A stretch of 64,000 bases of DNA, taken from assembly GCA_016212215.1 (NCBI GenBank), contig JACRGV010000125.1, positions 1-64,000 of the forward strand, written 5' to 3'. This DNA is from Nitrospirota bacterium. GTDB taxonomy: Bacteria; Nitrospirota; 9FT-COMBO-42-15; HDB-SIOI813. How positions within the stretch are numbered: position 1 is the first letter of the stretch; each line of letters opens with the position of its first letter. A program made the position numbers and the translations under genes. The notes beneath the pieces were generated by a model, which ran no database searches, was not told the DNA's origin, and worked only from the letters and a program-made list of their open reading frames with translations. Shown piece by piece: positions 1,157-60,119 of the stretch.

Positions 1157-1318
1157 AACCCCACCCTCACCCTGACCCTCTCCCTGAGGGAGAGGGAATA
1201 ATTGTGCCTGACTCTCTCTGAGAGAGAGGGGATAGTGGTGTCTGATTCTCTCTGAAGGGTAGGGGGCTACGGTTATTCCCTCCCCTTCAAGGGGAGGGTT
1301 AGGGTGGGGATGGGGTTA
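1157..1318 (+). repeat. G/C-rich palindromic element (copy 1)
   Basis: Complete copy: a C-rich arm with the CTCCCTGAGGGAG hairpin on the left, two partial repeats of that hairpin, then a CTCCCCTTCAAGGGGAG hairpin and the G-run end GGGTTAGGGTGGGGATGGGG. It lies between the convergent ends of the methyltransferase and the histidine kinase genes. Confidence 0.9.
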
Positions 1319-3538: not shown

Positions 3539-3707
3539 AACCCCATCCCCACCCTACCCCTCCCCTTGAAGTGGAGGGAATAATTGAAATACCTACCCCT
3601 CCCCTTGAAGGGAAGGGAATCAACAGAGTTACTTAACCCTACCTTTGAAAGGGAGGGGAAAACAACGCCCCCTCTCCCTCAGGGAGAGGGTCAGGGTGAG
3701 GGTGGGA
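3539..3707 (-). repeat. G/C-rich palindromic element (copy 3)
   Basis: Copy with hairpins CTCCCCTTGAAGTGGAG, CTCCCCTTGAAGGGAAG and a CTCCCTCAGGGAG hairpin at its right end, so its orientation is inverted relative to copy 1. It lies between the baeRF-like gene end and the regulator start, both on the minus strand. Confidence 0.85.
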
Positions 3708-3715
3708 TTTTCTGT

Positions 3716-4956: not shown

Positions 4957-7149
<2,193 letters not shown>

Positions 7150-7933: not shown

Positions 7934-9484
7934 ATGCCGTTGATTTCCCCTGACATTCTTTCACGATTAAGTGAATTTATTACATCAGCAACAGGTCTTA
8001 GCTTTACCGAGACTCAACTGCCTGAGCTTGAGAGGAGGATGGGGACTGCAACTGTTGAGTTTGGTTTTAATAATACAGAAGCCTTTATTTCATGGCTCCT
8101 GTCAACCACACTGACAAAGAAAAATATAGAAACCCTTGCAAGCCACCTTACTGTTGGAGAGACATATTTTTTCAGGGACAGCATGAGTTTTAAGGTGTTG
8201 GAAGAGACTATACTGCCCCAAATAATACATGAGAAATTAAATGCTAAACATGGGAATGAAAAACACCTGAGGATTTGGAGTGCCGGATGTAGTACAGGTG
8301 AAGAGCCTTATTCAATAGCAATACTACTTAACAGGACGATACCGGATATTAAAAACTGGAATATAACAATACTCGCAACTGATATAAATACTAAATTTAT
8401 TAATAGGGCATCTGAAGGGATATACGGCGAATGGTCATTTCGTGAGACCCCTGACTGGATTAAAGAAAGATATTTTAGGAACAAGGCCGGAGGGAAGTAT
8501 GAGATATTACCATTTATTAAGAAGATGGTAACCTTTTCATATCTTAATCTTGCGGATGATATATACCCATCCCTGCTGAATAATACAAATGCCATGGACC
8601 TGATATTTTCCCGCAATGTACTTATGTACCTGACTGATGAATGTTCAGGGAAGGTAATCAATGGATTTGCAAACTCATTAGTTGAGGGCGGGTTTTTGTT
8701 TTCCAGCCCAACAGACCCGGTCAGGACATTATCAGCAAGATTCACTACGATTAATTTTCCAGAGGTGATTCTTTACAAGAAAGGAGTCAGGGTAAAGGCT
8801 GAGGGTGGGCAGGGAGCAGAAGCAAGAAGTCAGAAGTTAGAAGTAAGATATGATGAGTCAGAAGCAAGAAGTAAGAAGTCAGAAGTCAGATATGATGAGT
8901 CAGAAGAAAGAAGTAAGAAGTCAGAAGCAAGAAGTAAGATGGTAGAAGAAATAAAAACGGAGGAAATTTCCCTCCCCTTCAAGGGGAGGGGTAGGGTGGG
9001 GATGGTTTTAGAAGAAGCCTCCTCCCTTTTCAAATCCGGCCAATACTCAGAAGCGATTAATGAACTATGCAAGCTCATATCTCATGAATATGACAACCCT
9101 GAGGCATATCCTTTAATTATACGGGCTTATGCAAATCAGGGCATGCTTGATGAGGCATTAGTGTGGTGTAAAAAGGCGGTATCGGAAGAGGTAGTGAACC
9201 CGGCATATCATTATCTGACAGCCACGGTACTTTTGGAGAAGGGCAGGACTGAGGAGGCTGTAAGGTCATTAAAGAATGCTCTCTACCTTGACCCAAGGTT
9301 TGTGATTCCATACTTTCTGCTTGGAAACATAATGCTGATTAAAGGAAATATTAAATCCGCAAATAAGTATTTTAAAAATGCCTCAGACCTGTCATCATCA
9401 TTAAACCCGGATGAAGTGCTTCCGGAGTCTGATGGAATGACGGCGGGGAGGATGGTGGAGATTGTTGGGGCATTGGTACAGTGA
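7934..9484 (+). CDS. cheR: CheR methyltransferase with TPR tail (WspC-like)
   Basis: A 516-residue chemoreceptor glutamate methyltransferase. The CheR N-terminal helical domain (1-80) precedes the SAM-binding domain with RIWSAGCSTGEEPYSIAILL (113-132) and MDLIFSRNVLMYL (221-233). The C-terminal third (about 355-500) holds TPR repeats, as in WspC and other CheR-TPR fusions of non-flagellar chemosensory systems. Between the two lies a repeat-derived linker: residues about 297-337 are repeats of SEARSKKSEVRYDE-type sequence, and residues 346-357 (SLPFKGRGRVGM) come from half a palindromic element. The site is an interdomain linker, so both folds should survive. The ribosome site is AAAGGA before ATG 7934. 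Confidence 0.95.
   Translation: MPLISPDILSRLSEFITSATGLSFTETQLPELERRMGTATVEFGFNNTEAFISWLLSTTLTKKNIETLASHLTVGETYFFRDSMSFKVLEETILPQIIHEKLNAKHGNEKHLRIWSAGCSTGEEPYSIAILLNRTIPDIKNWNITILATDINTKFINRASEGIYGEWSFRETPDWIKERYFRNKAGGKYEILPFIKKMVTFSYLNLADDIYPSLLNNTNAMDLIFSRNVLMYLTDECSGKVINGFANSLVEGGFLFSSPTDPVRTLSARFTTINFPEVILYKKGVRVKAEGGQGAEARSQKLEVRYDESEARSKKSEVRYDESEERSKKSEARSKMVEEIKTEEISLPFKGRGRVGMVLEEASSLFKSGQYSEAINELCKLISHEYDNPEAYPLIIRAYANQGMLDEALVWCKKAVSEEVVNPAYHYLTATVLLEKGRTEEAVRSLKNALYLDPRFVIPYFLLGNIMLIKGNIKSANKYFKNASDLSSSLNPDEVLPESDGMTAGRMVEIVGALVQ
8812..8945 (+). repeat. GAAGTAAGAAGTCA tandem repeat inside cheR
   Basis: Imperfect tandem units such as GAAGCAAGAAGTCAGAAGT and GAAGTCAGATATGATGAGTC. 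The tract is in frame within cheR and encodes a highly charged S/E/R/K linker. The same low-complexity sequence appears between genes elsewhere in the window. Confidence 0.85.
8968..9005 (+). repeat. Half palindromic element inside cheR (copy 6)
   Basis: Only the right half of the element is present (CTCCCCTTCAAGGGGAG hairpin and GGGGTAGGGTGGGGATGG). It is read in the frame giving SLPFKGRGRVGM, the same frame used in the cheA-REC and cheB copies. Confidence 0.9.
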
Positions 9485-9538
9485 ATAGTGGTTAGTGGTT
9501 AGTCAGAGGTAAGAAGTTAGAAGTAAGAAAACTTAGAT

Positions 9539-9703
9539 ACCCCACCCTCACCCTGACCCTCTCCCTGAGGGAGAGGGAATATAAGAGGAACTGATGCTCC
9601 CTGAGGGAGAGGGAATATAAGAGGAACTAACGCTCCCTGAGGGAGAGGGTACTAAGTTAATTCCCTCCCCTTCAAGGGGAGGGTTAGGGTGGGGATGGGG
9701 TTA
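9539..9703 (+). repeat. G/C-rich palindromic element (copy 7)
   Basis: Complete copy with three tandem CTCCCTGAGGGAG hairpins, then the CTCCCCTTCAAGGGGAG hairpin and the G-run end. It ends 8 bases before the start codon of the next CheW gene, and no other Shine-Dalgarno-like sequence lies between. Confidence 0.92.
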
Positions 9704-10307: not shown

Positions 10308-10334
10308 AGAGAGGTAGGAAGTTAGAAGTTAGAT

Positions 10335-10544
10335 ACCCCACCCTCACCCTAACCCTCTCCCTGAGGGAGAGGGAATATAAGAGGTGCTGACGCTCCCTGA
10401 GGGAGAGGGTGCTAAGTTAATTCCCTCTCCTTCAAGAGGATGTGGTTATGTAGTTCAAATATTCCCTCCCCTTCAAGAGGATGTGGTTAGGTAGTTCAAA
10501 TATTCCCTCCCCTTCAAGGGGAGGGTTAGGGTGGGGATGGGGTT
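10335..10544 (+). repeat. G/C-rich palindromic element (copy 8)
   Basis: Left C-rich arm with two CTCCCTGAGGGAG hairpins, two degenerate CCCTCCCCTTCAAGAGGATG units each followed by TGGTTA(T/G)GTAGTTCAAATA, then the final CTCCCCTTCAAGGGGAG hairpin and G-run end. The duplicated middle unit shows local tandem growth. It lies upstream of the MCP gene, which keeps its own ribosome site. Confidence 0.9.
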
Positions 10545-10581: not shown

Positions 10582-12222
10582 ATGAAGTGGTTTATTGATC
10601 TCTCCACACGCACCAAGCTGTTATTGAGTTTTGGACTCGGCATTATCTTGTTGATCGTAGTCATCATGTTTTCAATAAAAGGTATTGCAAGGGTTGAAGA
10701 CCGGGAGAAGGAGACAGTTAAACATGAGTTCGCAAATACTACCGACCTACTGACTCTCATGTCTTATGAAAATGAGGTCAGGGTCGGTTTGCTTTCAATG
10801 ATGGCGGTTAATGATGAAACCGGAAGGGGAAAATGGCATCAACTCATAAAGGAACGCTCCAGTCAGATCGGGAAGTTGATGTACAGGCTTACAGAAAGAA
10901 ATAAGGACACACCGGAAGACCAGAGTATGCTTAATGAATTAAGCGACATTAGGGGTGCATTCACACAGACAAGGGATAATGAGATTGTCCCTCTGATATA
11001 TGATAAGAAGATTGATCAGGCAAGGAGACTTGCTATGGGGATTCAGGCTGAACGATATGAAAAGATGAAGGCTATTACAACAGAACTCCTGAAAATGGAA
11101 AATGAAAGGGTAAAACTGCATTTATCTGAATCAGAACAGGAGACAGCAAGGACAAAGAGTATCTTTTACACAGCCGGTGTTATAGCAATCGTTGCAAGCA
11201 TTATCATGGTATTTTTCTGGAACAGTATAATCGCAAGGCCGTTAAAAGAGTTATCAGAAACGGCTGAAAAGGTCTCTTCCGGTGACCTTACTGTAAGTTT
11301 TCCCCTTAATGGAAGACTTGATGAGGTTGGTGTTTTAATGCGCATCTTCCGTACAATGATAGAGCGGATGCAGAGACAAACAAGGGATATCTCAGAATCA
11401 GTCAGCGTCCTTGCATCCTCATCTAATGAGATTGCGTCAACAACTGCACAGCTTGCAGCAGGTACTGAACAGACTGCCATAGCTGTCACAGAGACCACCA
11501 CTACAGTGGAAGAGGTTAAACAGACAGTTAATATGGCATCTGAGAAGGCAAAGAATGTTTCAGCAGTTGCACAGAATGCAGTACAGTTTTCTCAAAACGG
11601 CATGAGACTTGTGGGCGAGACTATAGATGGGATCAACAATATTAAATCCCAGATGGACTATATTGCTGAGACTATTGTTAAACTCAGTGAACACAGTCAG
11701 GCCATTGGAGAGATTATTGCTGCGGTGGATGATATAGCGGAACAGTCCAATCTCCTTGCAGTAAATGCCGCTATTGAGGCAACAAAGGTGGGGGAATACG
11801 GCAAGGGTTTTATTGTTGTTGCACAGGAGATAAAGAGCCTTGCAGAGCAGTCCAAACAGGCTACCAGACAGGTAAGGATAATACTTAATGATATACAGAA
11901 ATCAAACACAGCCGCGGTGATGGCTACAGAGAAGGGGGCTAAGGCTGTGGAGGCTGTGGTCAAGCAATCCTCCAACACAGGCAATGCAATACAGGAACTT
12001 TCAAAAGGTATTACTGAAGCCTCACAATCTGCTATACAAATAGCCGCATCAAGCCAACAGCAGTTGATAGGCATGGACCAGGTAGCACTTGCAATGAATA
12101 ACATCAAACAGGCAACAACACAGAACGCCGCAAGCACAAGACAGGTCGAATTGACAATGCGCACACTGCAGGAGGTCGGGCAGAGATTGAAGACGCTAGT
12201 GGATTATTACAGGGTGAGTTGA
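10582..12222 (+). CDS. Transmembrane chemoreceptor, MCP (WspA-like)
   Basis: A 546-residue methyl-accepting receptor. It has TM1 (about 12-31), a helical periplasmic ligand domain resembling the four-helix-bundle type (about 32-193), TM2 (194-213), HAMP (about 214-268) and a cytoplasmic signalling domain. The hairpin tip lies near residues 384-412 ([30 protein letters not shown]), where [11 protein letters not shown] replaces the commoner AARAGE(Q/H)GKGF. The start is set by TAGGAGG 9 bases upstream. It is the single receptor of cluster 1 and the expected partner of the CheW and CheA-REC proteins around it. Confidence 0.95.
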
Positions 12223-12228
12223 AGAAAG

Positions 12229-12299
12229 TGGATAGTGGTTAGTGGATAGAAGTAAGAAGTAAGAAACAAGAAGAAAGAAGCAAGAAGAAAGAAAACAGA
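12229..12299 (+). repeat. GTGGTTAGTGG / GAAGTAAGAAG tract
   Basis: A low-complexity purine-rich tract (GAAGTAAGAAGTAAGAAAC, AAGAAGAAAGAAGCAAG) directly after the MCP stop and directly before a palindromic element. The pairing of tract and element recurs throughout the window. Confidence 0.6.
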
Positions 12300-12510
12300 A
12301 ACCCCACCCTCACCCTAACCCTCTCCCTGAGGGAGAGGGAAATAAGAGGAACCGGCGCTCCCTGAGGGAGAGGGAATATAAGAGGTGCTGACGCTCCCTG
12401 AGGGAGAGGGAATAGAGGGGGAGCCTTGTTATTCCCTCCCCTTCGAGAGGGTTAGGTTTTTCAAATAATTCCCTCCCCTTCAAGGGGAGGGTTAGGGTGG
12501 GGATGGGGTT
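12300..12510 (+). repeat. G/C-rich palindromic element (copy 9)
   Basis: Left arm with three CTCCCTGAGGGAG hairpins, a degenerate middle CTCCCCTTCGAGAGGGTTAGG unit, then CTCCCCTTCAAGGGGAG and the G-run end. It ends 9 bases before the ATG of the CheA-REC gene. The G-rich end is the only ribosome-site-like sequence there. Confidence 0.92.
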
Positions 12511-12519
12511 TATTTATTC

Positions 12520-14766
12520 ATGAACAAGCGTGAAGAAGAGTTCCATAAGCGGTTGTTGGTTACCTTCAGGGGGGAGGCACAGGAGCATCTGAGGGCTATA
12601 TCCAATGGCCTGCTTGGGCTTGAGACCCCCAAGCCGAGGGAAGAAGAAGCAGGGGTGCTTGAAACCATATTCCGTGCATGTCACACGCTCAAAGGGGCCG
12701 CAAGGGCTGTCAATTTAACAGATATTGAGTCCATCTGTCAGTCGCTGGAGGACATTTTTGATGACTGGAGACATGAGGGTATTAAGAGGTCTTCAGAAAC
12801 GTTTAACTCATTACATAAGGCACTTGAATCAATGAACCGCCGGTTGTCCTCTATGAAAGCAGATGGGACATTGATAGGTGAAGAAGAATTATCCAGGGTT
12901 GCAGCGGGGTTGTCAGTGCTTGTGAAGATGCCGCCGATACCGGAGAGTGCGGAGGGCGGAAAACCCCACCCTCACCTTTATCCTCTCCCTGAGGGAGAGG
13001 ATAATTCCCTCCCATTCAAGGGGAGGGTTAGGGTGGGGATGGGGTCACTCTCCCACGACACCATCAAAATCTCCACCGCAAAACTCAATGCCCTTCTCCA
13101 CAAATCAGAAGAGATGCTGGCGATTAAGCGCACTGAGGGCCAGCGCTATTCAGAGGTTAATGATATTTACAATACATTTGATGCGTTTAAAAGAAAGATG
13201 TCTGCTATTTCACCAATAGAAGATACTGAAACTTCAGAATATGTAGTATTACAACTGAAGTCAATAAAAAACAAACTCTCAGCATTGAAAAAATCCGCCC
13301 GGCAGGCAGATGTAATATTTACCAGGGCAGTAGACAATCTCATTGATGAATCCAAGAAGGCAATGATGCAGTCGTTCTCTGAGATTACAGAGGGGTTTCC
13401 GTTACTTGTAAGGTCTGTCTCGCATGAACAGGGGAAAGAGGTTATCCTAAAGATTCAGGGAGAAGATGTTGAAGTGGACAGGAGGATACTTGCAGAGATT
13501 AAAGACCCGTTAATCCATATTATAAGAAACTGTATTGACCATGGAATTGAATATCCCGCAGTAAGGGAGGCAAACAACAAAGATAGAACAGGTACTATTT
13601 CAATTAATATATCACTTAAGGAGAACAGTAAGGTTGAGATTATTATTTCTGATAACGGTAAAGGTATTGATATTGAGAAGATTAAGGGAACGTCCATTAA
13701 AAATGGACTAATCTCAAGGGAGACTGCTGAAAGTCTGAATGATGAAGATGCATTATCCTTTATCTTTCATTCAGGGTTTTCAACCTCTCCGTTGATTACC
13801 TCAATATCAGGCAGGGGGCTTGGTCTCGCTATTGTACGAGAGAAGATAGATAATCTCAGCGGGACTGTAACAGTAAAATCTGAGTTAAATTCCGGTACTG
13901 CATTTTCAATAATAATCCCTGTTACTCTTGCCACATTCCGGGGGATTCTGATACGTGTTAATGACCAAGTATTTATTGTCCATTCAAATAATGTTTTAAA
14001 GGTAATGATGATAAAAAAGGATGAAATAAAGACAGTAGAAAACAGGGAGTGCATAGTGTATAATAGCCGACCTGTATCGTATGTACGGCTTAAAGATATA
14101 CTTCAGATTGATACGGGAAAAAGTATCCGGCCCAAGTCGGAATACGTTACAGTCTTGATATTAAAAGGTATGGATATAAATATTGCGGCCGGTGTTGATG
14201 AGATAATTGAAGAGTCAGAGGTATTGGTTAAAAATCTCGGAACACAGCTTGTACGTGTAAGAAATGTCTCAGTCGCCGCAATCATGGGGACAGGCAGGAC
14301 TGTTCCGGTTCTCAATGTTAGTGACCTGATAAGGACTGCCTTAAAAAATGCTGTAAGTGCACTGCCGGTATATCCTGTAATGACAACAGAGGTTGAAACA
14401 GAAAAGTTGTCAATCCTTGTTGCAGAGGATTCGATAACATCCCGAATCCTGTTAAAAAATATCCTTGAATCCGCAGGATATAATGTCAGGACAGCAGTAG
14501 ATGGTGTTGATGCCATAACAATGCTCAAGACAGAGGATTTTGACCTTGTAGTATCCGATATTGAAATGCCCCGCATGGATGGATTCGGCCTCTGCTCAAA
14601 GATACGCAGTGATAAAAAACTTGCTGAACTTCCTGTAGTATTAGTAACAGCCCTCGAGACAAGAGAAGACCGTGAAAAAGGCATCAGCGTTGGGGCTAAT
14701 GCATATATAGTGAAGAGCAGTTTTGATCAGAGTAATTTGATTGAAGTGATTAGAAGGCTGATATAA
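12520..14766 (+). CDS. cheA: Hybrid CheA-REC histidine kinase (WspE-like)
   Basis: A 748-residue chemotaxis kinase fused to a receiver. The HPt domain carries phospho-accepting His55 in FRACHTLKGAAR. The ATPase core shows the N box (HIIRNCIDHGIEYP) and G boxes (ISDNGKGIDI, GRGLGLAIVREKI). A CheW-like domain (about 465-610) follows, and a C-terminal receiver (about 627-748) has Asp680 in VVSDIEMPRMDGFG. This matches WspE/FrzE-type CheA-REC. Residues about 147-176 (PHPHLYPLPEGE and SLPFKGRVRVGMG) are encoded by an in-frame palindromic element at 12961-13045, placed in the linker after HPt. Confidence 0.95.
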   Translation: MNKREEEFHKRLLVTFRGEAQEHLRAISNGLLGLETPKPREEEAGVLETIFRACHTLKGAARAVNLTDIESICQSLEDIFDDWRHEGIKRSSETFNSLHKALESMNRRLSSMKADGTLIGEEELSRVAAGLSVLVKMPPIPESAEGGKPHPHLYPLPEGEDNSLPFKGRVRVGMGSLSHDTIKISTAKLNALLHKSEEMLAIKRTEGQRYSEVNDIYNTFDAFKRKMSAISPIEDTETSEYVVLQLKSIKNKLSALKKSARQADVIFTRAVDNLIDESKKAMMQSFSEITEGFPLLVRSVSHEQGKEVILKIQGEDVEVDRRILAEIKDPLIHIIRNCIDHGIEYPAVREANNKDRTGTISINISLKENSKVEIIISDNGKGIDIEKIKGTSIKNGLISRETAESLNDEDALSFIFHSGFSTSPLITSISGRGLGLAIVREKIDNLSGTVTVKSELNSGTAFSIIIPVTLATFRGILIRVNDQVFIVHSNNVLKVMMIKKDEIKTVENRECIVYNSRPVSYVRLKDILQIDTGKSIRPKSEYVTVLILKGMDINIAAGVDEIIEESEVLVKNLGTQLVRVRNVSVAAIMGTGRTVPVLNVSDLIRTALKNAVSALPVYPVMTTEVETEKLSILVAEDSITSRILLKNILESAGYNVRTAVDGVDAITMLKTEDFDLVVSDIEMPRMDGFGLCSKIRSDKKLAELPVVLVTALETREDREKGISVGANAYIVKSSFDQSNLIEVIRRLI
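12961..13045 (+). repeat. Palindromic element inside cheA-REC (copy 10)
   Basis: Compact copy: one CTCCCTGAGGGAG hairpin and one CCTCCCATTCAAGGGGAGG hairpin with both outer ends. It lies in frame within the linker between HPt and the kinase core, and uses the same reading frame as the cheB copy. Confidence 0.93.
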
Positions 14767-14802
14767 GGCAGTGGATAGTGAATAGTGAATGGAAGAAAGG
14801 CG

Positions 14803-15008
14803 AACCCCACCCTCACCCTAACCCTCTCCCTGAGGGAGAGGGAATATAAGGTGACTGACGTTCTCCCTGAGGGAGAGGGAATATAAGGTGACTGAGGTGC
14901 TCCCTGAGGGAGAGGGTGCTAAGTTTATTCCCTCCCCTTCAGAAGAGGGTTAGGTTCTTCAAATAATTCCCTCCCTTTCAAGGGGAGGGTTAGGGTGGGG
15001 ATGGGGTT
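14803..15008 (+). repeat. G/C-rich palindromic element (copy 11)
   Basis: Left arm with three CTCCCTGAGGGAG hairpins separated by AATATAAGGTGACTGA-type spacers, a degenerate CTCCCCTTCAGAAGAGG unit and the G-run end. Its last bases contain GTG and ATG codons in frame with cheB, so it overlaps the possible 5' end of that gene. Confidence 0.92.
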
Positions 15009-15024
15009 AACAAAGGAGAACATC

Positions 15025-16185
15025 TTGCCGGAACAACACAAAAAAATAAACGTACTGATTGTGGAAGACTCGGCTGTGGTGCGGGAATATTTAAAACATA
15101 TACTGGAATCTGACCCGAAATTGCATGTAATGGGGATGGCTGAAGACGGTGAAGAGGCTGTTAATTTTGTTAGCGATAACAAACCGGATGTAATCACTAT
15201 GGATGTTAATATGCCCGACATGAACGGTCTTGCAGCAACCAGAAAGATTATGGAGATAAATCCGGTTCCCATAATCATTGTAAGCGCCAGTTTCAGCCAT
15301 CGGGATGTTGAAAGGTCATTTAAGGCCATACAGGCAGGTGCCATTGCAGTTGTGGAGAAACCTCCGGGGCCCGGTAATCCCAGATACGAACATACCGCGA
15401 GTGAACTGATACAGACTGTGAAACTTATGTCTGAGGTAAAGGTTGTAAAAAGGTGGAACAAAAGTAAGATAATATCAACCTTAGTATCCACGGCGAAACC
15501 CCACCCTCACCCTAACCCTCTCCCTGAGGGAGAGGGAATAGAAGGGGATCCTTGTTATTCCCTCCCCTTCAAGGGGAGGGATAGGGTGGGGATGGGGTCA
15601 TCTCCAGTTCCTCATAACGACATCAAGCTCATTGCCATCGGTGCCTCTACCGGCGGGCCGCCGGTGCTTCTAAGAGTACTTTCCGGACTTCATGCAGGAT
15701 TTCCTGTTCCAATACTTATTGTCCAGCACATTGCAATGGGTTTTCTCAGAGGTTTAGTTGAATGGCTGGGAAACAATATTGAACTTCCCGTAGTTATTGC
15801 TTCAGATGGAGAGCGTATAAAACCGGGAACAATATATTTTGCCCCTGAGGACCTTCATCTGGGTGTAGATAAGGGAAAAAGGATTTCCTTGAGTGATGCC
15901 TCTCCGGAAAACGGCATAAGGCCGTCAGTATCTTATCTCTTCCGTTCTGCATTTAATGCTTATGGAGGAAGTGCCGCAGGCATACTGCTTACAGGGATGG
16001 GAAGGGATGGGGCTGAAGAGCTTTGTCTGATGAGATACAGCGGGGCATTAACTATTGCTCAGGATAAAGAAAGCTCTGTTGTGCATGGGATGCCCGGCGA
16101 GGCAATAAGGCTCGGCGGGGCTGCACAAGTGCTTCCGCCGGAGAGGATAGCGGCGTTGCTGGAGAAGATTGGGAGAGAGGCGTGA
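15025..16185 (+). CDS. cheB: CheB receptor methylesterase (WspF-like)
   Basis: Receiver plus methylesterase/deamidase that removes methyl groups from the receptor. The receiver has Asp60 in TMDVNMPDMNG and a KPPGPGNP linker. The esterase has Ser208 in IGASTGGPPVLL, His235 in VQHIAMGF and Asp328 in LTGMGRDG (numbered from TTG 15025). I prefer that TTG start because AAAGGAG lies 6 bases upstream. In-frame GTG 14995 and ATG 15001 lie within the preceding palindromic element and would add 10 or 8 residues. Residues about 158-192 are encoded by a second element (15496-15599) in the interdomain linker, giving [13 protein letters not shown] and SLPFKGRDRVGMG. Confidence 0.94.
   Translation: MPEQHKKINVLIVEDSAVVREYLKHILESDPKLHVMGMAEDGEEAVNFVSDNKPDVITMDVNMPDMNGLAATRKIMEINPVPIIIVSASFSHRDVERSFKAIQAGAIAVVEKPPGPGNPRYEHTASELIQTVKLMSEVKVVKRWNKSKIISTLVSTAKPHPHPNPLPEGEGIEGDPCYSLPFKGRDRVGMGSSPVPHNDIKLIAIGASTGGPPVLLRVLSGLHAGFPVPILIVQHIAMGFLRGLVEWLGNNIELPVVIASDGERIKPGTIYFAPEDLHLGVDKGKRISLSDASPENGIRPSVSYLFRSAFNAYGGSAAGILLTGMGRDGAEELCLMRYSGALTIAQDKESSVVHGMPGEAIRLGGAAQVLPPERIAALLEKIGREA
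15496..15599 (+). repeat. Palindromic element inside cheB (copy 12)
   Basis: Complete compact copy in frame between the receiver and esterase domains of cheB. It encodes [13 protein letters not shown], a short spacer, and SLPFKGRDRVGMG. Confidence 0.94.
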
Positions 16186-16200
16186 TTAAAGCCCAACCCA

Positions 16201-16348
16201 AACCCCACCCTCACCCTAACCCTCTCCCTGAGGGAGAGGGAATATAGGGAGGGGCTTCTTTGTAATTCCCTCCCCTTCTAAGGAGAGGGTTAGGTTTTTC
16301 AAATAATTCCCTCCCCTTCAAGGGGAGGGTTAGGGTGGGGATGGGGTT
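16201..16348 (+). repeat. G/C-rich palindromic element (copy 13)
   Basis: Left C-rich arm with one CTCCCTGAGGGAG hairpin, a degenerate CTCCCCTTCTAAGGAGAGG unit and the final hairpin with G-run end. Codons GTG and ATG at its end are in frame with the hybrid kinase gene that follows. Confidence 0.92.
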
Positions 16349-19667: not shown

Positions 19668-19862
19668 AACCCCACCCTCACCCTAACCCTCTCCCTGAGG
19701 GAGAGGGAATAAAAGTATGGCTGACGTTCTCCCTGAGGGAGAGGGAATAAAGAAAAGGCTAAGGGAGGTTGAACCACGTATATTCCTTCCCCTCCAAGGG
19801 GAAGATTAGGTACATTTTAAATTCCCTCCCCTTCAAGGGGAGGGTTAGGGTGGGGATGGGGT
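19668..19862 (+). repeat. G/C-rich palindromic element (copy 14)
   Basis: Left arm with two CTCCCTGAGGGAG hairpins, a degenerate CCTCCAAGGGGAAGATTAGG unit and the final hairpin with G-run end. The stretch 19479-19667 before it holds only A/T-rich sequence; I see no gene or clear signal there. Confidence 0.9.
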
Positions 19863-19872
19863 ACTCTCCACT

Positions 19873-20645: not shown

Positions 20646-20867
20646 AACCCCACCCTCACCCTAACCCTCTCACTGAGGGAGAGGGAATAGTAAGAGGCGT
20701 AACTCTCCCTGAGGGAGAGGAAATATTTTGAGGCGTAGCACTCCCTGTTGGGGAGGGAATAAAAGAGGGAAATATCTACATGTAAATTCCCTCCTCTACA
20801 AGGGGCGGGTCAAGTACCTCATAAATCCCCTCCCCTTCAAGGGGAGGGGTAGGGTGGGGATGGGGTT
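20646..20867 (+). repeat. G/C-rich palindromic element (copy 15)
   Basis: Left arm with one intact and several degenerate CTCCCTGAGGGAG hairpins, a degenerate CTCCTCTACAAGGGGCGGGTCAAG unit and the final hairpin with G-run end. It lies between the parA-like and receptor genes. Confidence 0.88.
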
Positions 20868-20923: not shown

Positions 20924-23737
20924 ATGCCATTAGGAGAAAATATTTCAAAGCACAAGCTAATCAAGAGTACAGAAGGCGGGGATGTGATGATGGAAGATGA
21001 GCCGTATTTTGTAAAGGAGCCGGAGGGCGGCAAAAGGCATGGGGGTATACCCCCTTCTCTGATGCCCATGCTGTTAAGGGCATTGAGGGCGGCAAAGAAC
21101 GGGGACTTTACAACGAGACTGCCTGAGGATGAGAGATTCGGTGAGGTAGCTGTTGTCTTTAATGAATTGATAGGGATTAATCAGGGGATTACAAATGAGA
21201 TTATGAGGATAAGCAAGGCAATCGGTGAAGAGGGTAAACTTACTGAGCGAGCATCCCTCTCAGGAATTCAAGGGGCATGGATGCTGAACATAGAATCATT
21301 TAATTCCCTTATAAACGCAATGGCACAGCCGACTACTGAGGTTGGAAGGGTAATTACCGCGGTTGCTGAAGGTGACCTTTCAAAAAAGATGCGTATGGAA
21401 ATCGAGGGTAAGCCTTTAAAAGGCGAGTTCGCACGGATTGGAACAATAGTGAATACAATGGTCGGCCAGTTGGGGTTATTTGCTTCTGAGGTAACTCGTG
21501 TTTCCAAAGAGGTCGGCACAGAAGGCAAACTCGGCGGCCAGGCAAAGGTAGAGGGGATAGCCGGTACATGGAAGGAATTAACATATAATGTCAATGCAAT
21601 GGCAAGCAGTCTGACATCTCAGGTCAGGGATATTGCAAAGGTGACAACAGCGGTTGCAAACGGCGATATGTCGCAAAAGATTACAGTTGAGGCTAAAGGC
21701 GAGATACTCCAATTAAAGGAAACAGTAAATAAAATGGTTGACCAGCTCAGTGCCTTTGCATCAGAGGTTACGCGTGTTGCAAGAGAGGTAGGCACAGACG
21801 GTAAACTTGGCGGCCAGGCTGAGGTTAAAGGTGTTGCAGGTACATGGAAGGAACTCACAGACAATGTGAATATGATGGCAAACAACCTTACCAGTCAGGT
21901 GCGAAATATTGCAGATGTAACAACAGCGGTTGCAAACGGCGATCTCTCCAAAAAGATTACAGTTGAGGTTAAGGGTGAGATGCTTGAGTTGAAGGATACG
22001 ATTAATACAATGGTTGACCAGCTCAATGCCTTTGCCTCAGAGGTTACGCGTGTTGCAAGAGAGGTAGGTGTGGATGGGAAGCTCGGCGGTCAGGCACAGG
22101 TAAAGGGTGTTGCAGGGACATGGAAGGAGCTGACAGACAATGTGAATATGATGGCAAATAACCTCACCAGCCAGGTGAGAAATATTGCGAGCGTTACAAC
22201 AGCAGTTGCTACAGGTGACCTCTCAAAGAAGATTACAGTAGAGGCCAAGGGGGAGATACTGGAACTCAAGAATACCGTCAATATAATGGTTGATCAGTTA
22301 AATGCATTTGCCTCAGAGGTTACACGTGTTGCAAGAGAGGTTGGTGCAGAAGGAAAACTTGGCGGACAGGCTGAGGTGCGCGGTGTAGGCGGTACGTGGC
22401 GTGAACTTACAGAGAACGTGAATATGATGGCATCCAACCTTACAAGCCAGGTGAGAAATATTGCAAGTGTTACAACAGCGGTTGCAAATGGTGACCTGTC
22501 TCAGAAGATTACAGTTGAGGCAAAAGGAGAGATCCGCCAGTTAAAGGATACGATTAACAGGATGGTTGACCAGCTCAATGGCTTTGCCTCAGAGGTTACG
22601 CGTGTTGCAAGGGAGGTTGGTACTGACGGTAAACTCGGTGGTCAGGCGGAGGTCAAGGGCGTGGGCGGTACATGGAAAGACCTTACGGATAATGTAAATA
22701 TGCTTGTCTCTAATCTTACCAACCAGGTCAGAAATATCGCGAGCGTTGCAACAGCAGTTGCAAATGGTGACCTCTCAAAGAAGATTACGGTTGAGGCAAG
22801 AGGCGAAATAATGGAGCTGAAGAATACTATAAATACAATGGTTGATCAGCTCAATGGCTTCGCCTCAGAAGTAACTCGTGTTGCAAGAGAGGTCGGCACT
22901 GACGGAAAACTCGGCGGACAGGCTGAGGTAAAGGGTGTTGGCGGTACGTGGAAGGAGCTTACAGAGAATGTCAACATGATGGCATCCAACCTTACCAGCC
23001 AGGTGAGAAATATCGCGGGTGTTACAACAGCGGTTGCAAATGGTGACCTGTCTCAGAAGATTGTGGTTGATGCAAGGGGTGAGATACTTGAGTTAAAGAA
23101 TACCATTAACGGCATGGTTGATAACCTGAATACGATTATAGGTGAGATCAATGATGTAATGGCCATGGTTGGTGAAGGTAACCTTACAAAGATGATTGAG
23201 GTAAAGGCACTCGGTGAATTTAATTCCATGGTTGACGGAATTAACGGTACTATGGAGAGTCTGCGCGGTATTGTAACAGAGCTAAGGGAGGCAGGTATCA
23301 ATATAGGCTCTGTTTCACAGAACATGCTCAGTGCAGGACAGGAGATGAATGCAATGGTTACACAGTTGTCGTCTTCAGTCGGTCAGATTGCCGAGGGTGC
23401 GAAGGGGCAGGCTTCGCAGATAGCCGCGGCATCCAAGGAGTCTGAAGGGGTCGGCAAGACAGCATCAAATACGCTGGGTCAGGCAGAGAGCATGAACGAG
23501 GCCGCAGAGGTTGCAAACAGGGCTGCTGCAGAGGGCGGCAAGGCAATGGGAGAGACCATCAAATATACTGACCTCATGCTTGACGGTTCAAAAGAGTCAG
23601 TTGCAAGGATTGAGTCCCTCAGTAAGAGCAGTGAGCAGATTCAGGAGATTGTAGAGGTTATCCGGGATATTGCCACCCAGACAAACATCCTTGCCATCAA
23701 TGCGGCTATTGAGGCCGTGCGTGCAGGGAAACTATGA
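20924..23737 (+). CDS. Soluble poly-HAMP chemoreceptor, truncated by in-frame TGA
   Basis: A 937-residue product with no transmembrane segment. Six near-identical 92-residue units (about residues 234-785) each carry a [19 protein letters not shown] half and an [19 protein letters not shown] half, that is, paired HAMP modules. They closely resemble the HAMP repeat array of fungal group III hybrid kinases (Nik1/Os-1). The MCP signalling domain then begins, but a TGA at 23735-23737 stops translation at [14 protein letters not shown], inside the hairpin tip that contacts CheA and CheW. The same frame stays open to 24283. A full protein would have 1119 residues. The receptor of cluster 2 is therefore a truncated gene, a readthrough case, or an assembly error. 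Confidence 0.9.
21623..23278 (+). repeat. 276-bp tandem repeats coding for HAMP pairs
   Basis: Six tandem units of 276 bp (starting near 21623, 21899, 22175, 22451, 22727 and 23003), each coding for one 92-residue HAMP pair; the last diverges in its second half. Blocks such as GAGGTTACGCGTGTTGCAAG recur almost unchanged, so copy number could change by recombination. Confidence 0.9.
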
Positions 23738-24283
23738 AAAGGGTTTGCTGTTGTTGCAGAAGAGGTTAAGACACTTTCTGCGGACAGCAAGGCACAGGCC
23801 AAGAAGATTTCAACGCTCGTGCAGTCGGTTCTTAAAGAGACGGATGAGACATCAACTACTATTAAGACAATGGCAGGAAACGTTGAAACAGGCAGACGCT
23901 CGATTGAGCAGACATCAAAGGCATTCGGGGATATTAACCGCTCAATTGAGATAACCTCCCAGACAGCAAAGGGGATATCTGTTGCAGCCGCAGACCAGAA
24001 AAAGAGCATTGATTCCATATCAATAAGCCTTGATAAAATAAGCGGTATAGCGGTAGACACATCAAACAGCAGTACACAATCTGCTGAAAGCGGCAAACGC
24101 CTCCTCGCAAAGACGCAGGAACTATCAACCACCGCAACCACACTCGCCGCCATGTCTGAAAAACTCCAGCAGACAGTGGGAAGATTTACCATTGAAGGAA
24201 GCGGGGGGACAACCAAGCCCATGACAGGAGGAACAAGAAGGACACAACGCTTAGGGGAGAGGCAGATGTCAGGACGGGCGTAA
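23738..24283 (+). pseudogene. C-terminal MCP signalling fragment after the TGA
   Basis: This is the in-frame continuation of the poly-HAMP receptor. Directly after the TGA it reads KGFAVVAEEVKTLSADSKAQAKKI, the conserved descending arm of the MCP hairpin, then the methylation helix region to residue 1119. The TGA falls where receptors have Gly in GKGFAVV, so a single G-to-T change (GGA to TGA) explains it. Methionine codons inside it (for example 23819) have no good ribosome site. Confidence 0.85.
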
Positions 24284-24337: not shown

Positions 24338-24468
24338 AACCCCACCCTCACCCTAACCCTCTCCCTGAGGGAGAGGGGGCGCAGAAGATTCCCTCTCCTT
24401 CAAGGGATGGTTAGGCATCTTTTAAATCCCCTCCCCTTCAAGGGGAGGGGTAGGGTGGGGATGGGGTT
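24338..24468 (+). repeat. G/C-rich palindromic element (copy 16)
   Basis: Left arm with one CTCCCTGAGGGAG hairpin, a degenerate CTCTCCTTCAAGGGATGG unit and a final CTCCCCTTCAAGGGGAG hairpin with GGGGTAGGGTGGGGATGGGG. It is preceded by a GAAGTAAGAAGCAAGAAAA tract. The following 24469-24567 carries the ribosome site ACGGAGG of the next gene. Confidence 0.9.
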
Positions 24469-25135: not shown

Positions 25136-25242
25136 AACCCCACCCTCACCCTAACCCTCTCCCTGAGGGAGAGGGAATATAGGGGGGGACTGCTTTTTAA
25201 TTCCTTCCCCATCAAGGGGAGGGTTAGGGCGGGGATGGGTTT
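25136..25242 (+). repeat. G/C-rich palindromic element (copy 17)
   Basis: One CTCCCTGAGGGAG hairpin, a TTCCCCATCAAGGGGAGG hairpin and the end GGGTTAGGGCGGGGATGGG. It ends 6 bases before the GTG start of the cheB N-terminal part, and no other ribosome site is visible. Confidence 0.88.
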
Positions 25243-28699: not shown

Positions 28700-28980
28700 A
28701 ACCCCACCCTCACCCTAACCCTCTCCCTGAGGGAGAGGGAATAGAAGAATGGCTGACGTTCTACCTTTAAATTCCCTCCCCTTCAAGGGGAGGGAATTAA
28801 AGATGTACCTAATCTTCTCATTGAAGGGGAGGGAATTAAAGATGTACCTAATCTTCCCCTTGAAGGAGAGGGAATTAAAAGAGGGTCTCTCATCTTCTAT
28901 TCCCTCTTCCTCAGGGAGAGAGTTAGTACCTTTTCATATTCCCTCTCCCTCAGGGAGAGGGTTAGGGTGAGGGTGGGGTA
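28700..28980 (+). repeat. Expanded palindromic element (copy 19)
   Basis: A large composite: left C-rich arm with CTCCCTGAGGGAG, the CTCCCCTTCAAGGGGAG hairpin, two tandem GGGAATTAAAGATGTACCTAATCTTC repeats with (C)CATTGAAGGGGAG arms, and a right end with CTCCCTCAGGGAG and GTTAGGGTGAGGGTGGGG. It fills the 337-base gap between cheC and the HD-GYP gene. Confidence 0.88.
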
Positions 28981-33960: not shown

Positions 33961-34056
33961 AACCCCACCCTCACCCTGACCTTCTCCCTGAGGGAGAGAG
34001 GGCGGCTAAGTTAATTTCACCCCTTCAAGGGGAGGGGTAGGGTGGGGATGGGGGTT
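33961..34056 (+). repeat. G/C-rich palindromic element (copy 21)
   Basis: A compact copy: C-rich arm with CTCCCTGAGGGAG and CACCCCTTCAAGGGGAGG with GGGGTAGGGTGGGGATGGGG. It lies between cysK and the first E1 gene. Confidence 0.9.
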
Positions 34057-36158: not shown

Positions 36159-36292
36159 AAACCCCACCCTCACCCTAACCCTCTCCCTGAGGGAGAGGGT
36201 GCTAAGTTTATTCCCACCCTTAAAGGAAGAGGGTTAGCATCAATTTTGATTCCCTCCCCTTCAAGGGGAGGGTTAGGGTGGGGATGGGGTTA
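36159..36292 (+). repeat. G/C-rich palindromic element (copy 22)
   Basis: C-rich arm with CTCCCTGAGGGAG, a degenerate CCACCCTTAAAGGAAGAGG unit, then CTCCCCTTCAAGGGGAG and the G-run end. An AGTGAATAGTGAATAGTGAATAG tract (36116-36138) precedes it. Codons near its end are in frame with the CysO-like gene but are probably not used. Confidence 0.9.
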
Positions 36293-36878: not shown

Positions 36879-36971
36879 AAACCCCACCCTCACCCGTACC
36901 CTCTCCCTGAGGGAGAGGGTGCTAAGATTATTCCCTCCCTTCAAGGGGAGGGTTAGGGTGGGGATGGGTTA
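36879..36971 (+). repeat. G/C-rich palindromic element (copy 23)
   Basis: A compact copy with CTCCCTGAGGGAG and CCCTCCCTTCAAGGGGAGG hairpins and the G-run end, lying between the NIL gene and the second E1 gene. It is preceded by a GAAGTTAGAAGCAAGAAAA tract. Confidence 0.9.
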
Positions 36972-38425: not shown

Positions 38426-38662
38426 ATGGTTAAACGGTCATTTTATTTTGTCGGCGGAATAGTTTTTATATTTTTAGGAATAATAGGGTTTTTACTCCCG
38501 ATTATCCCTGGTTTTATACCTTTTATTATTGGAGTGGTTATGCTTTCAAGATCAAGTAAGACCATCAGGGGGTACATGCTGAGAATAAAAGCAAGATATC
38601 CAAAACAGTTTGAGAAGATGCATGAACTGAGGGAGAAGATGGGAAGGCATAGATTTAAATAG
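38426..38662 (+). CDS. Small membrane protein with PIIPGFIPF motif
   Basis: A 78-residue protein with two hydrophobic segments (about 5-23 and 29-43) joined by LPIIPGFIPF, then a basic cytoplasmic tail (MLRIKARYPKQFEKMHELREKMGRHRFK). The pattern resembles small DUF454/PGPGW-type membrane proteins of unknown function. The start lies shortly after a palindromic element, and no strong ribosome site is visible. It is monocistronic. Confidence 0.7.
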   Translation: MVKRSFYFVGGIVFIFLGIIGFLLPIIPGFIPFIIGVVMLSRSSKTIRGYMLRIKARYPKQFEKMHELREKMGRHRFK

Positions 38663-38663
38663 G

Positions 38664-38722
38664 CAGAAGTAAGAAGCAAGAGGCAAGAAGTTAGATGCAA
38701 GAGGCAAGAAGCAAGAAAGAAA
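38664..38722 (+). repeat. GAAGTAAGAAGCAAGAGGCAAG tract
   Basis: Imperfect repeats of GAAG(T/C)AAGA(A/G)GCAAGA between the small membrane protein gene and the MITE-like element. This is the same low-complexity family as inside cheR. Confidence 0.65.
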
Positions 38723-38736
38723 AAAACAACAACTAG

Positions 38737-38868
38737 AGGCTCTTGCAAAAGTCTCTGTCATCCCCGAAATCCTTTATCGGGGATATGTTTACTATTAAAA
38801 AAATAATAGATTCCCGCTAAAAACATGCGGGAATGACAGCATTTTGGGACTTTTGCAAGAACCTCACT
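38737..38868. repeat. MITE-like element upstream of typA
   Basis: A 132-bp element with terminal inverted repeats (AGGCTCTTGCAAAAGTC and GACTTTTGCAAGAACCT). It carries two internal hairpins (TCATCCCCGAAATCCTTTATC GGGGATA and ATTCCCGC...GCGGGAAT). It has no coding capacity and ends 22 bases before the typA start codon. Confidence 0.8.
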
Positions 38869-59950: not shown

Positions 59951-60119
59951 ACAGTGAATAGTGAATAGTGAACAGTGATTATTAATCCCCGTTACATATC
60001 ACCAACACTTCTTACTTCTTGAATCTTCATTCAACCTTAAACCTTCACCCTTCTTGCTTCTTGCATCAACCTTCTACCTTCAACTATCAACCTTCTACCT
60101 TCTTGCTTCTTACATCAGC
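59951..60119. repeat. AGTGAATAGTGA and CTTCTTGCTTCTTGCATC tracts
   Basis: GTGAATAGTGAATAGTGAAC is followed by imperfect CTTC(T/A)(A/T)CCTTC / CTTGCTTCTTGCATCA repeats. These are the same low-complexity families found beside palindromic elements in the first 38 kb, here without any G/C-rich element. It fills the fabH-fabD gap. Confidence 0.65.

Follow-up and report, generated by a model that had tools for sequence, protein, structure and literature searches.

The window examined here, a stretch of 64,000 nucleotides on contig C125 of a Nitrospirota genome, contains many copies of a short G/C-rich palindromic element, which lie between genes and also within the reading frames of three chemotaxis genes (cheR, cheA and cheB) and the DNA ligase gene ligA. 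We found that both ends of the element have the geometry of intrastrand-triplex motifs, as known from the triplex motif (TM) of Escherichia coli, for which PIT element is another name (Hoyne and Maher, as cited in PMC4666352). In all probability, the element is a non-autonomous repeat based on TM/PIT motifs that has multiplied in this genome, with its copies in genes being filtered by frame and its peptide being tolerated. To judge from the reading frames, the in-frame presence of TM/PIT-type motifs in dozens of unrelated proteins, among them an essential DNA ligase, would be new. Our literature search found no report of TM/PIT motifs within proteins, and a search for the peptide strings of the inserts found no paper.

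Architecture and abundance of the element

The source genome comprises 2.99 Mb in 164 contigs and has a completeness score of 100%. The statistics were drawn from 1.41 Mb (47%) of this genome and from about 0.67 Mb of one relative, and gene starts and boundaries were taken from a simple hexamer gene caller. The 1.41 Mb were scanned with left- and right-end patterns (≤5 mismatches), and 471 element ends were found, compared with 2 for the reversed patterns that served as control. Genome-wide, a scan with at most 2 mismatches gave 362 ends of the left type and 421 of the right, while control patterns gave 0. Thus, chance is ruled out as the source of these ends. It should be noted that element copies share descent, and the counts given here treat them as separate.

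The basic unit consists of a left end, AACCCCACCCTCACCCTAACCCTCTCCCTGAGGGAGAGGG, and a right end, TTCCCTCCCCTTCAAGGGGAGGGTTAGGGTGGGGATGGGGTT (right-end sequence CCCTCCCCTTCAAGGGGAGGGTTAGGGTGGGGAT), each being approximately the reverse complement of the other. As terminal inverted repeats, they are imperfect and about 27 bp long (AACCCCAYCCYCACCCTAACCCTCYCC); such repeats are a trait of miniature inverted-repeat transposable elements (MITEs). Unit lengths peak at 81 and 89 bp, and longer forms include additional hairpin units, each about 36-39 nt in length. There were 105 left-right pairs in inverted arrangement, and the ends formed 345 clusters, with 223 in intergenic regions, 57 at gene edges and 65 within open reading frames (ORFs). 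In addition, a ~50-bp module (ATTTTCGGATGAAC..CATGAGCC..GGCTCACAAAGGGCAATGAAAAT), found for example in the flanks of 89-bp elements, alternates with the element in mosaics, as does a GCGGGACAAGAAAGTCCCGCC..GGCGGGGTTTTC module, and a CTTCGACAAGCTCAGGATGACA repeat adjoins several elements in the source genome. An Rfam scan of positions 1-40000 of the window gave no match to any RNA family.

Each end contains a hairpin whose loop is three bases long and, as a third strand, a purine-rich segment mirroring the purine strand of the stem. For instance, AAGGGGAGGG, a TTA loop and GGGTGGGGAT at the right end give ten allowed triads. In a geometric test that accepted class II triads (G.GC, A.AT and T.AT) and called for at least 7 triads and at most 1 mismatch, class II intrastrand triplex geometry was present in 435 of the 471 ends (310 of them perfect), compared with 1 of 471 shuffles, and it was retained in 77 of the 87 intragenic ends. 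Both ends are intrastrand-triplex motifs of the TM/PIT kind, with the triplex itself predicted from geometry and hairpin folding. The E. coli TM is reported to form a stable triplex in vitro (PMC4666352).

Furthermore, the left end matched the E. coli motif at up to 97.2% over 36 nt, and the second loop distinguishes the motif types found here from E. coli type B. Since TM/PIT motifs make up both halves, and the left one corresponds to the E. coli motif at 97%, the element belongs to a known kind, and the earlier suggestion of a distinct family is not supported. Matches to the left end occurred at 24,072 places in 4,494 E. coli genomes. Among 30 of these that were sampled, 29 lay outside any annotated feature and one overlapped the last 26 bases of ycjD.

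Copies within proteins

The original prediction had placed the same element in cheR, cheA, cheB and ligA, and all four inserts were present close to the predicted positions (Table 1). The complete form with left and right ends was confirmed in cheA and cheB, whereas cheR contains a right half only and ligA contains two left-type halves facing each other. According to Pfam, the cheA insert lies between the Hpt (aa 12-104) and HATPase (aa 329-469) domains and is read as KPHPHLYPLPEGEDNSLPFKGRVRVGMGS, with residues 148-175 being KPHPHLYPLPEGEDNSLPFKGRVRVGMG; the syntenic cheA of the relative G006 (L202) gives a 50% alignment over the whole length and lacks the element. The cheB insert lies between REC (aa 20-124) and CheB_methylest (aa 213-388), and that of cheR, read as SLPFKGRGRVGM, lies between CheR (aa 76-275) and the TPRs (from aa 359); the 7-nt tandem repeat just before it (8817-8960) is likewise translated in the ORF. 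The ligA insert corresponds to residues ~289-332 inside the adenylation domain, and ligA has a single match in the source genome.

LigA, CheB and CheA were searched in 24 relatives. The LigA proteins of these relatives align at residues 1-284 and 335-722 with nothing between, and their CheB homologues match both sides of the insert with residues ~160-205 missing. Thus, the homologues flank the inserts and omit them, and inserts shared at the same positions, which would have spoken for ancestral peptides, were not found in these alignments. This agrees with the proposal that a mobile non-coding repeat survives here as an in-frame protein insert.

Meanwhile, seven-base tandem repeats of the AGAAGTM type occur at 8817-8960, 12219-12300, 38650-38730 and 60008-60112, near several gene ends. 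The one in the cheR linker is read as a SQKSEVRSKKSE-like peptide and represents a second repeat family entering proteins.

Across the 1.41 Mb, the in-frame hosts include MutS, BioF, ArgC, GltX, MtaB, AnmK, a P-type ATPase and others, besides LigA, CheR, CheA and CheB. Orthologues were compared in part of the relative G004 and in pieces of G006, G002 and G001, and none of about 20 same-family orthologues that span the sites had an insert. Some linkers that hold inserts here hold other repeat peptides in relatives, such as CHPELVSGSQTK in AnmK of G004. The expected location in interdomain linkers is correct for the three che inserts, but in LigA, BioF and the P-type ATPase the insert lies inside a Pfam domain. 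Insert-bearing enzymes scored highly against curated models, with 1072 bits (MutS), 451 (BioF), 435 (ArgC) and 452 (MtaB).

The in-gene copies were filtered by length and by frame. The length was a multiple of 3 in 15 of 17 full intragenic elements and in 10 of 84 intergenic ones (p ~1e-9). In addition, 10 of the 18 elements of the CACCTTAATCC subfamily (mostly 81 bp) were intragenic, compared with 7 of the 87 remaining elements (p ~2e-5), and the 89-bp majority was almost wholly intergenic. The 81-bp subfamily is suited to genes because it amounts to 27 codons and is open through both halves and the usual flanks (DEK-PHPHLNPLPEGEEISLPFKGRVRVGMG-xFSDE). On the sense strand, the right half of the main type has two open frames and one frame with TAG; the LPFKGRVRVGMG frame was used by 26 of these halves, the second open frame by 3 and the closed one by 2, and in both of the latter TAG had been mutated away. 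The second right-half subfamily has one open frame, which was used in 11 of 11 cases. The stop codons CCC TAA and GGT TAG lie in the frames predicted for them, and they do decide which frames are tolerated. For the halves in cheR, cheA and cheB, the claim of a single frame is right; genome-wide, a constant frame is true of most copies only (26 vs 3 vs 2).

No signal of selection on the peptide was found from codon positions and synonymous counts over the coding copies, which carry 11 synonymous and 22 non-synonymous changes, with a neutral expectation of 27/80. The insert peptide seems to be tolerated and not selected, and the host proteins are presumably still functional.

Intergenic copies, gene starts and species distribution

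Of 172 single motifs between co-directional genes, 158 carried their G-rich tail on the sense strand, and 63 of 68 full intergenic elements were co-directional with transcription. Furthermore, in 94 of 182 motif-gene pairs a start codon followed the tail at a distance of 0-16 nt. The distances peaked sharply at 10-11 and 15 nt, and a Shine-Dalgarno-like (SD-like) tetramer stood between tail and start in 23 of these 94. In the che operon, spacers of 149-297 nt are filled with elements, compared with motif-free spacers of -8 to 26 nt in G006.

The right end adjoins the sequence TTTTC(N)RTGAA, which occurred 237 times against 15 in the control here (16-fold) and 58 times against 5 in G004 (12-fold), where 12 of the 58 sites had GGGG upstream. 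Since it is enriched in both genomes, this sequence may represent an older repeat of start sites to which the element was added. Many of these sites in both genomes precede long ORFs.

Table 1. Positions of element copies in the window
Feature	Position	Strand	Context
Intergenic element	1157..1317	+	
Intergenic element	3539..3709	-	
Inverted pair of two left-type motifs	6127..6260	-	In frame in ligA (ORF 4957-7125, minus)
Single right-half triplex motif	8970..9007	+	In frame in cheR (ORF 7934-9484)
Left end, ~36-nt hairpin units, right end	9538..9702	+	cheR/cheW-like gene; right end ~10 nt before ATG 9711
Multi-unit element	10334..10544	+	Between cheW-like gene and MCP gene
Multi-unit element	12300..12510	+	Between MCP gene and cheA; right end ~11 nt before ATG 12520
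Full 81-bp element, CACCTTTATCC variant, coding subfamily	12962..13046	+	In frame in cheA (ORF 12520-14766)
Multi-unit element	14803..15008	+	Between cheA and cheB; G006 operon motif-free
Full element	15497..15599	+	In frame in cheB (ORF 14995-16185)
Element at gene junction	16201..16348	+	cheB/next gene
Intergenic multi-unit element	19668..19863	+	
Intergenic multi-unit element	20646..20867	+	
Intergenic element	24338..24468	+	
Intergenic element	25136..25242	+	
Intergenic array running from a left end through several hairpin units to a reversed left end	28700..28980	.	
Intergenic element	33961..34055	+	
Intergenic element	36160..36291	+	
Intergenic element, 88-89 bp type	36880..36971	+	

Two other kinds of repeat were seen in the window. 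A dispersed palindromic repeat, CCCCGAATGCNTCTATCGGGGATA (family D17), occurs at 38750, 40852, 46720 and 51463, and the ORF at 20924-23737 contains six tandem copies of a 276-bp unit (21449-23128).

The species distribution indicates a recent burst of the element in the source lineage. With at most 3 mismatches, the pattern was found 209 times here, once in the sole same-genus genome compared, and 1-5 times in eight other members of the family. Relatives with few copies also have in-frame ORF inserts (G005 L145, G007 L148 and G004 L149). In addition, the exact 32-nt left end is present in Enterobacterales, Pseudomonas, Aeromonas, Verrucomicrobia, Chloroflexi, Omnitrophica and other genomes. 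In named genomes, where the motif was located at 114 places, it was in frame in Mfd (twice) and in a BadF/DUF2229 protein of Chloroflexi UBA6077 (L325, L347), and in an Omnitrophica ORF with a MutS domain (L267). The exact 81-type pattern had no match in the named genomes. Spread by viruses was considered and rejected, as the exact 32-nt left end had no match in viral_contigs.

Origin of the copies and comparison with known repeats

We propose that the inserts are copies of a high-copy, non-autonomous repeat composed of two oppositely oriented TMs, a left one with its G-rich strand at the bottom and a right one with its G-rich strand on top. It has multiplied in this lineage mainly between co-directional genes, often right up to the start codon, and a copy within a gene persists only with the frame kept open. 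Movement was probably by insertion through a trans-acting or replication-linked mechanism, and the copying might depend on an unrecognised factor or on a process linked to replication or transcription, possibly promoted by the triplex.

Several points weigh against this explanation. No transposase or other mover was identified, although Y1 (PF01797; 0 matches) was the sole family searched. The alignment of flanks gave no consistent target-site duplication; the right flank resembles TTATTTTCGGATGAA and the left flank ends in AAAA. The genes were called by a simple hexamer model in 47% of a fragmented assembly. Furthermore, the 26:3 frame skew exceeds what stop codons alone predict (p ~2e-5), and a TGAA-like junction explains it only partly (p ~0.009 after correction). 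If the junction is TGAA-like, codon phase accounts for part of the skew, because two thirds of in-gene TGAA are in phase xxT-GAA. The skew beyond stop codons and TGAA implies a further filter or target preference. Tentatively, one may suppose that the triplex repeat moves in a way coupled to transcription or translation starts, inserting beside start codons in one orientation at a TGAA-like target, by a mechanism not related to the known repeat transposases, and that one sub-lineage became a frame-preserving 27-codon insert seeding linkers throughout the proteome; we regard this as doubtful.

The bias towards gene starts could also mean that the element is a mobile translation-start cassette, made of a G-rich right tail and TTATTTTCGG(ATG), which is kept or inserted upstream of starts by aiding translation initiation or operon expression, with the protein inserts as off-target copies. 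This is possible but on the whole unlikely. The distance of the tail from the start codon, the sense-strand and co-directional biases and the enrichment of TTTTC(N)RTGAA, often at gene starts, all fit such a cassette. However, this sequence mostly lacks the G-rich tail in G004, so the context may predate the element and merely flank it, the SD-like tetramer is present in a minority of the pairs, and the E. coli TM reportedly has neither strand bias nor a hint of a general regulatory role (PMC4666352). Selection could alternatively have spread the peptides as a functional module, for example a basic linker or a localisation tag, as identical peptides occur in many proteins and the hydrophilic LPFKGRVRVGMG frame prevails over the Trp-rich open frame by 26:3. 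Nevertheless, the substitution counts are near neutral, the hosts are functionally unrelated, several different peptide readings exist, and most copies are intergenic and non-coding, which makes this explanation highly improbable.

The palindromic form, high copy number, inverted pairs and frequent mosaics resemble REP/BIME and would suit a repeat of the REP type that a RAYT (IS200/Y1 transposase) mobilises. Such mobilisation is very unlikely and was rejected after a search of the source genome and 98 relatives: PF01797 is absent from the 100%-complete source genome and is uncorrelated with the motif, since 70 of the 99 genomes searched carry it without a burst and motifs are present without any Y1 match in G065 and G080. 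In addition, the aligned ends lack a GTAG/CGTC tag. The fragmented assembly of 164 contigs, in which repeats are hard to assemble, could raise the suspicion of mis-assembly, pseudogenes or ancestral low-complexity linkers. But 65 loci keep their frames open and show matching lengths, the genome contains no second ligA, the orthologues lack the inserts, and other genomes carry in-ORF inserts as well (G005 L145, G007 L148, G004 L149 and Mfd of UBA6077, L325). Hence an artefact is scarcely credible. We therefore retain the non-autonomous TM/PIT-based repeat as the explanation.

On that explanation, a non-coding repeat supplies conserved enzymes with ready-made peptides. Earlier work described the E. 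coli triplex motif as strictly intergenic, with neither its mover nor its function known, and the source genome offers hundreds of oriented copies, many of them at start codons, together with dozens of natural in-frame insertions in conserved and partly essential enzymes, for which empty-site orthologues are available for comparison. With such copies and empty sites, the spread of the motif, any effect on translation and the conversion of non-coding DNA into protein become testable. Moreover, the peptides recur in other phyla (Mfd of Chloroflexi and the MutS-domain ORF of Omnitrophica), so they can mislead annotation.

The element shares traits with several known repeats. Like REP/BIME with RAYT, it consists of short palindromes in high copy number and in multi-unit mosaics (PMC3733652, PMC2817692). 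Unlike them, it bears no GTAG/CGTC tag, and the source genome lacks a RAYT. Pneumococcal BOX has a fixed left end, a variable number of internal units and a fixed right end, and the modular build found here resembles it in architecture only.

In-frame survival of small mobile repeats has been reported for Rickettsia palindromic elements (RPE), a 107-bp Neisseria element, RU-1 and RU-2 (PMC2229807). In Neisseria, a frame-open 107-bp form occurs in ORFs and a 155-bp form that bears stops or breaks the frame is intergenic, and the 81-/89-bp split described above parallels this split of genic and intergenic forms (PMC2229807). By description, the element is thus like the Correia/NEMIS, ERIC/RU-1 and YPAL/RU-2 MITEs, with a frame-open short form in ORFs and a frame-breaking form between genes. 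It differs from them in that no consistent target duplication was found and no parent transposon, for which Y1 alone was searched. RPE were reported in 19 reading frames and are tolerated by enzymes, as in the gmk case (PMC2229807), compared with 65 in-ORF clusters here in 47% of one genome. Like RPE, the element is a palindromic repeat of about 100 bp that is intergenic and also inserted in frame in unrelated genes, with orthologues lacking it; the likeness is one of behaviour. Unlike RPE, its triplex motifs are shared with E. coli and are not restricted to Rickettsia.

The closest relationship is with TM/PIT, with which the element shares the hairpin, the TTA loop, the purine third strand and the left end. 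Both form inverted type pairs, which are seen sometimes in E. coli, where no mobility gene lies nearby (PMC4666352); both lack a known mobilising enzyme, and both are scattered over many phyla. However, the E. coli TM is reported as always intergenic, with 23 copies in MG1655 (Holder et al. 2015, PMC4666352), whereas 471 ends were found here in 47% of the genome, and 65 of 345 clusters are intragenic. Furthermore, unlike the E. coli TM, the copies here are oriented with transcription (158:14 and 63:5) and placed at start codons, they form multi-unit arrays with internal hairpin units of the length given above, and they include an 81-bp two-motif subfamily that lies in frame within proteins.

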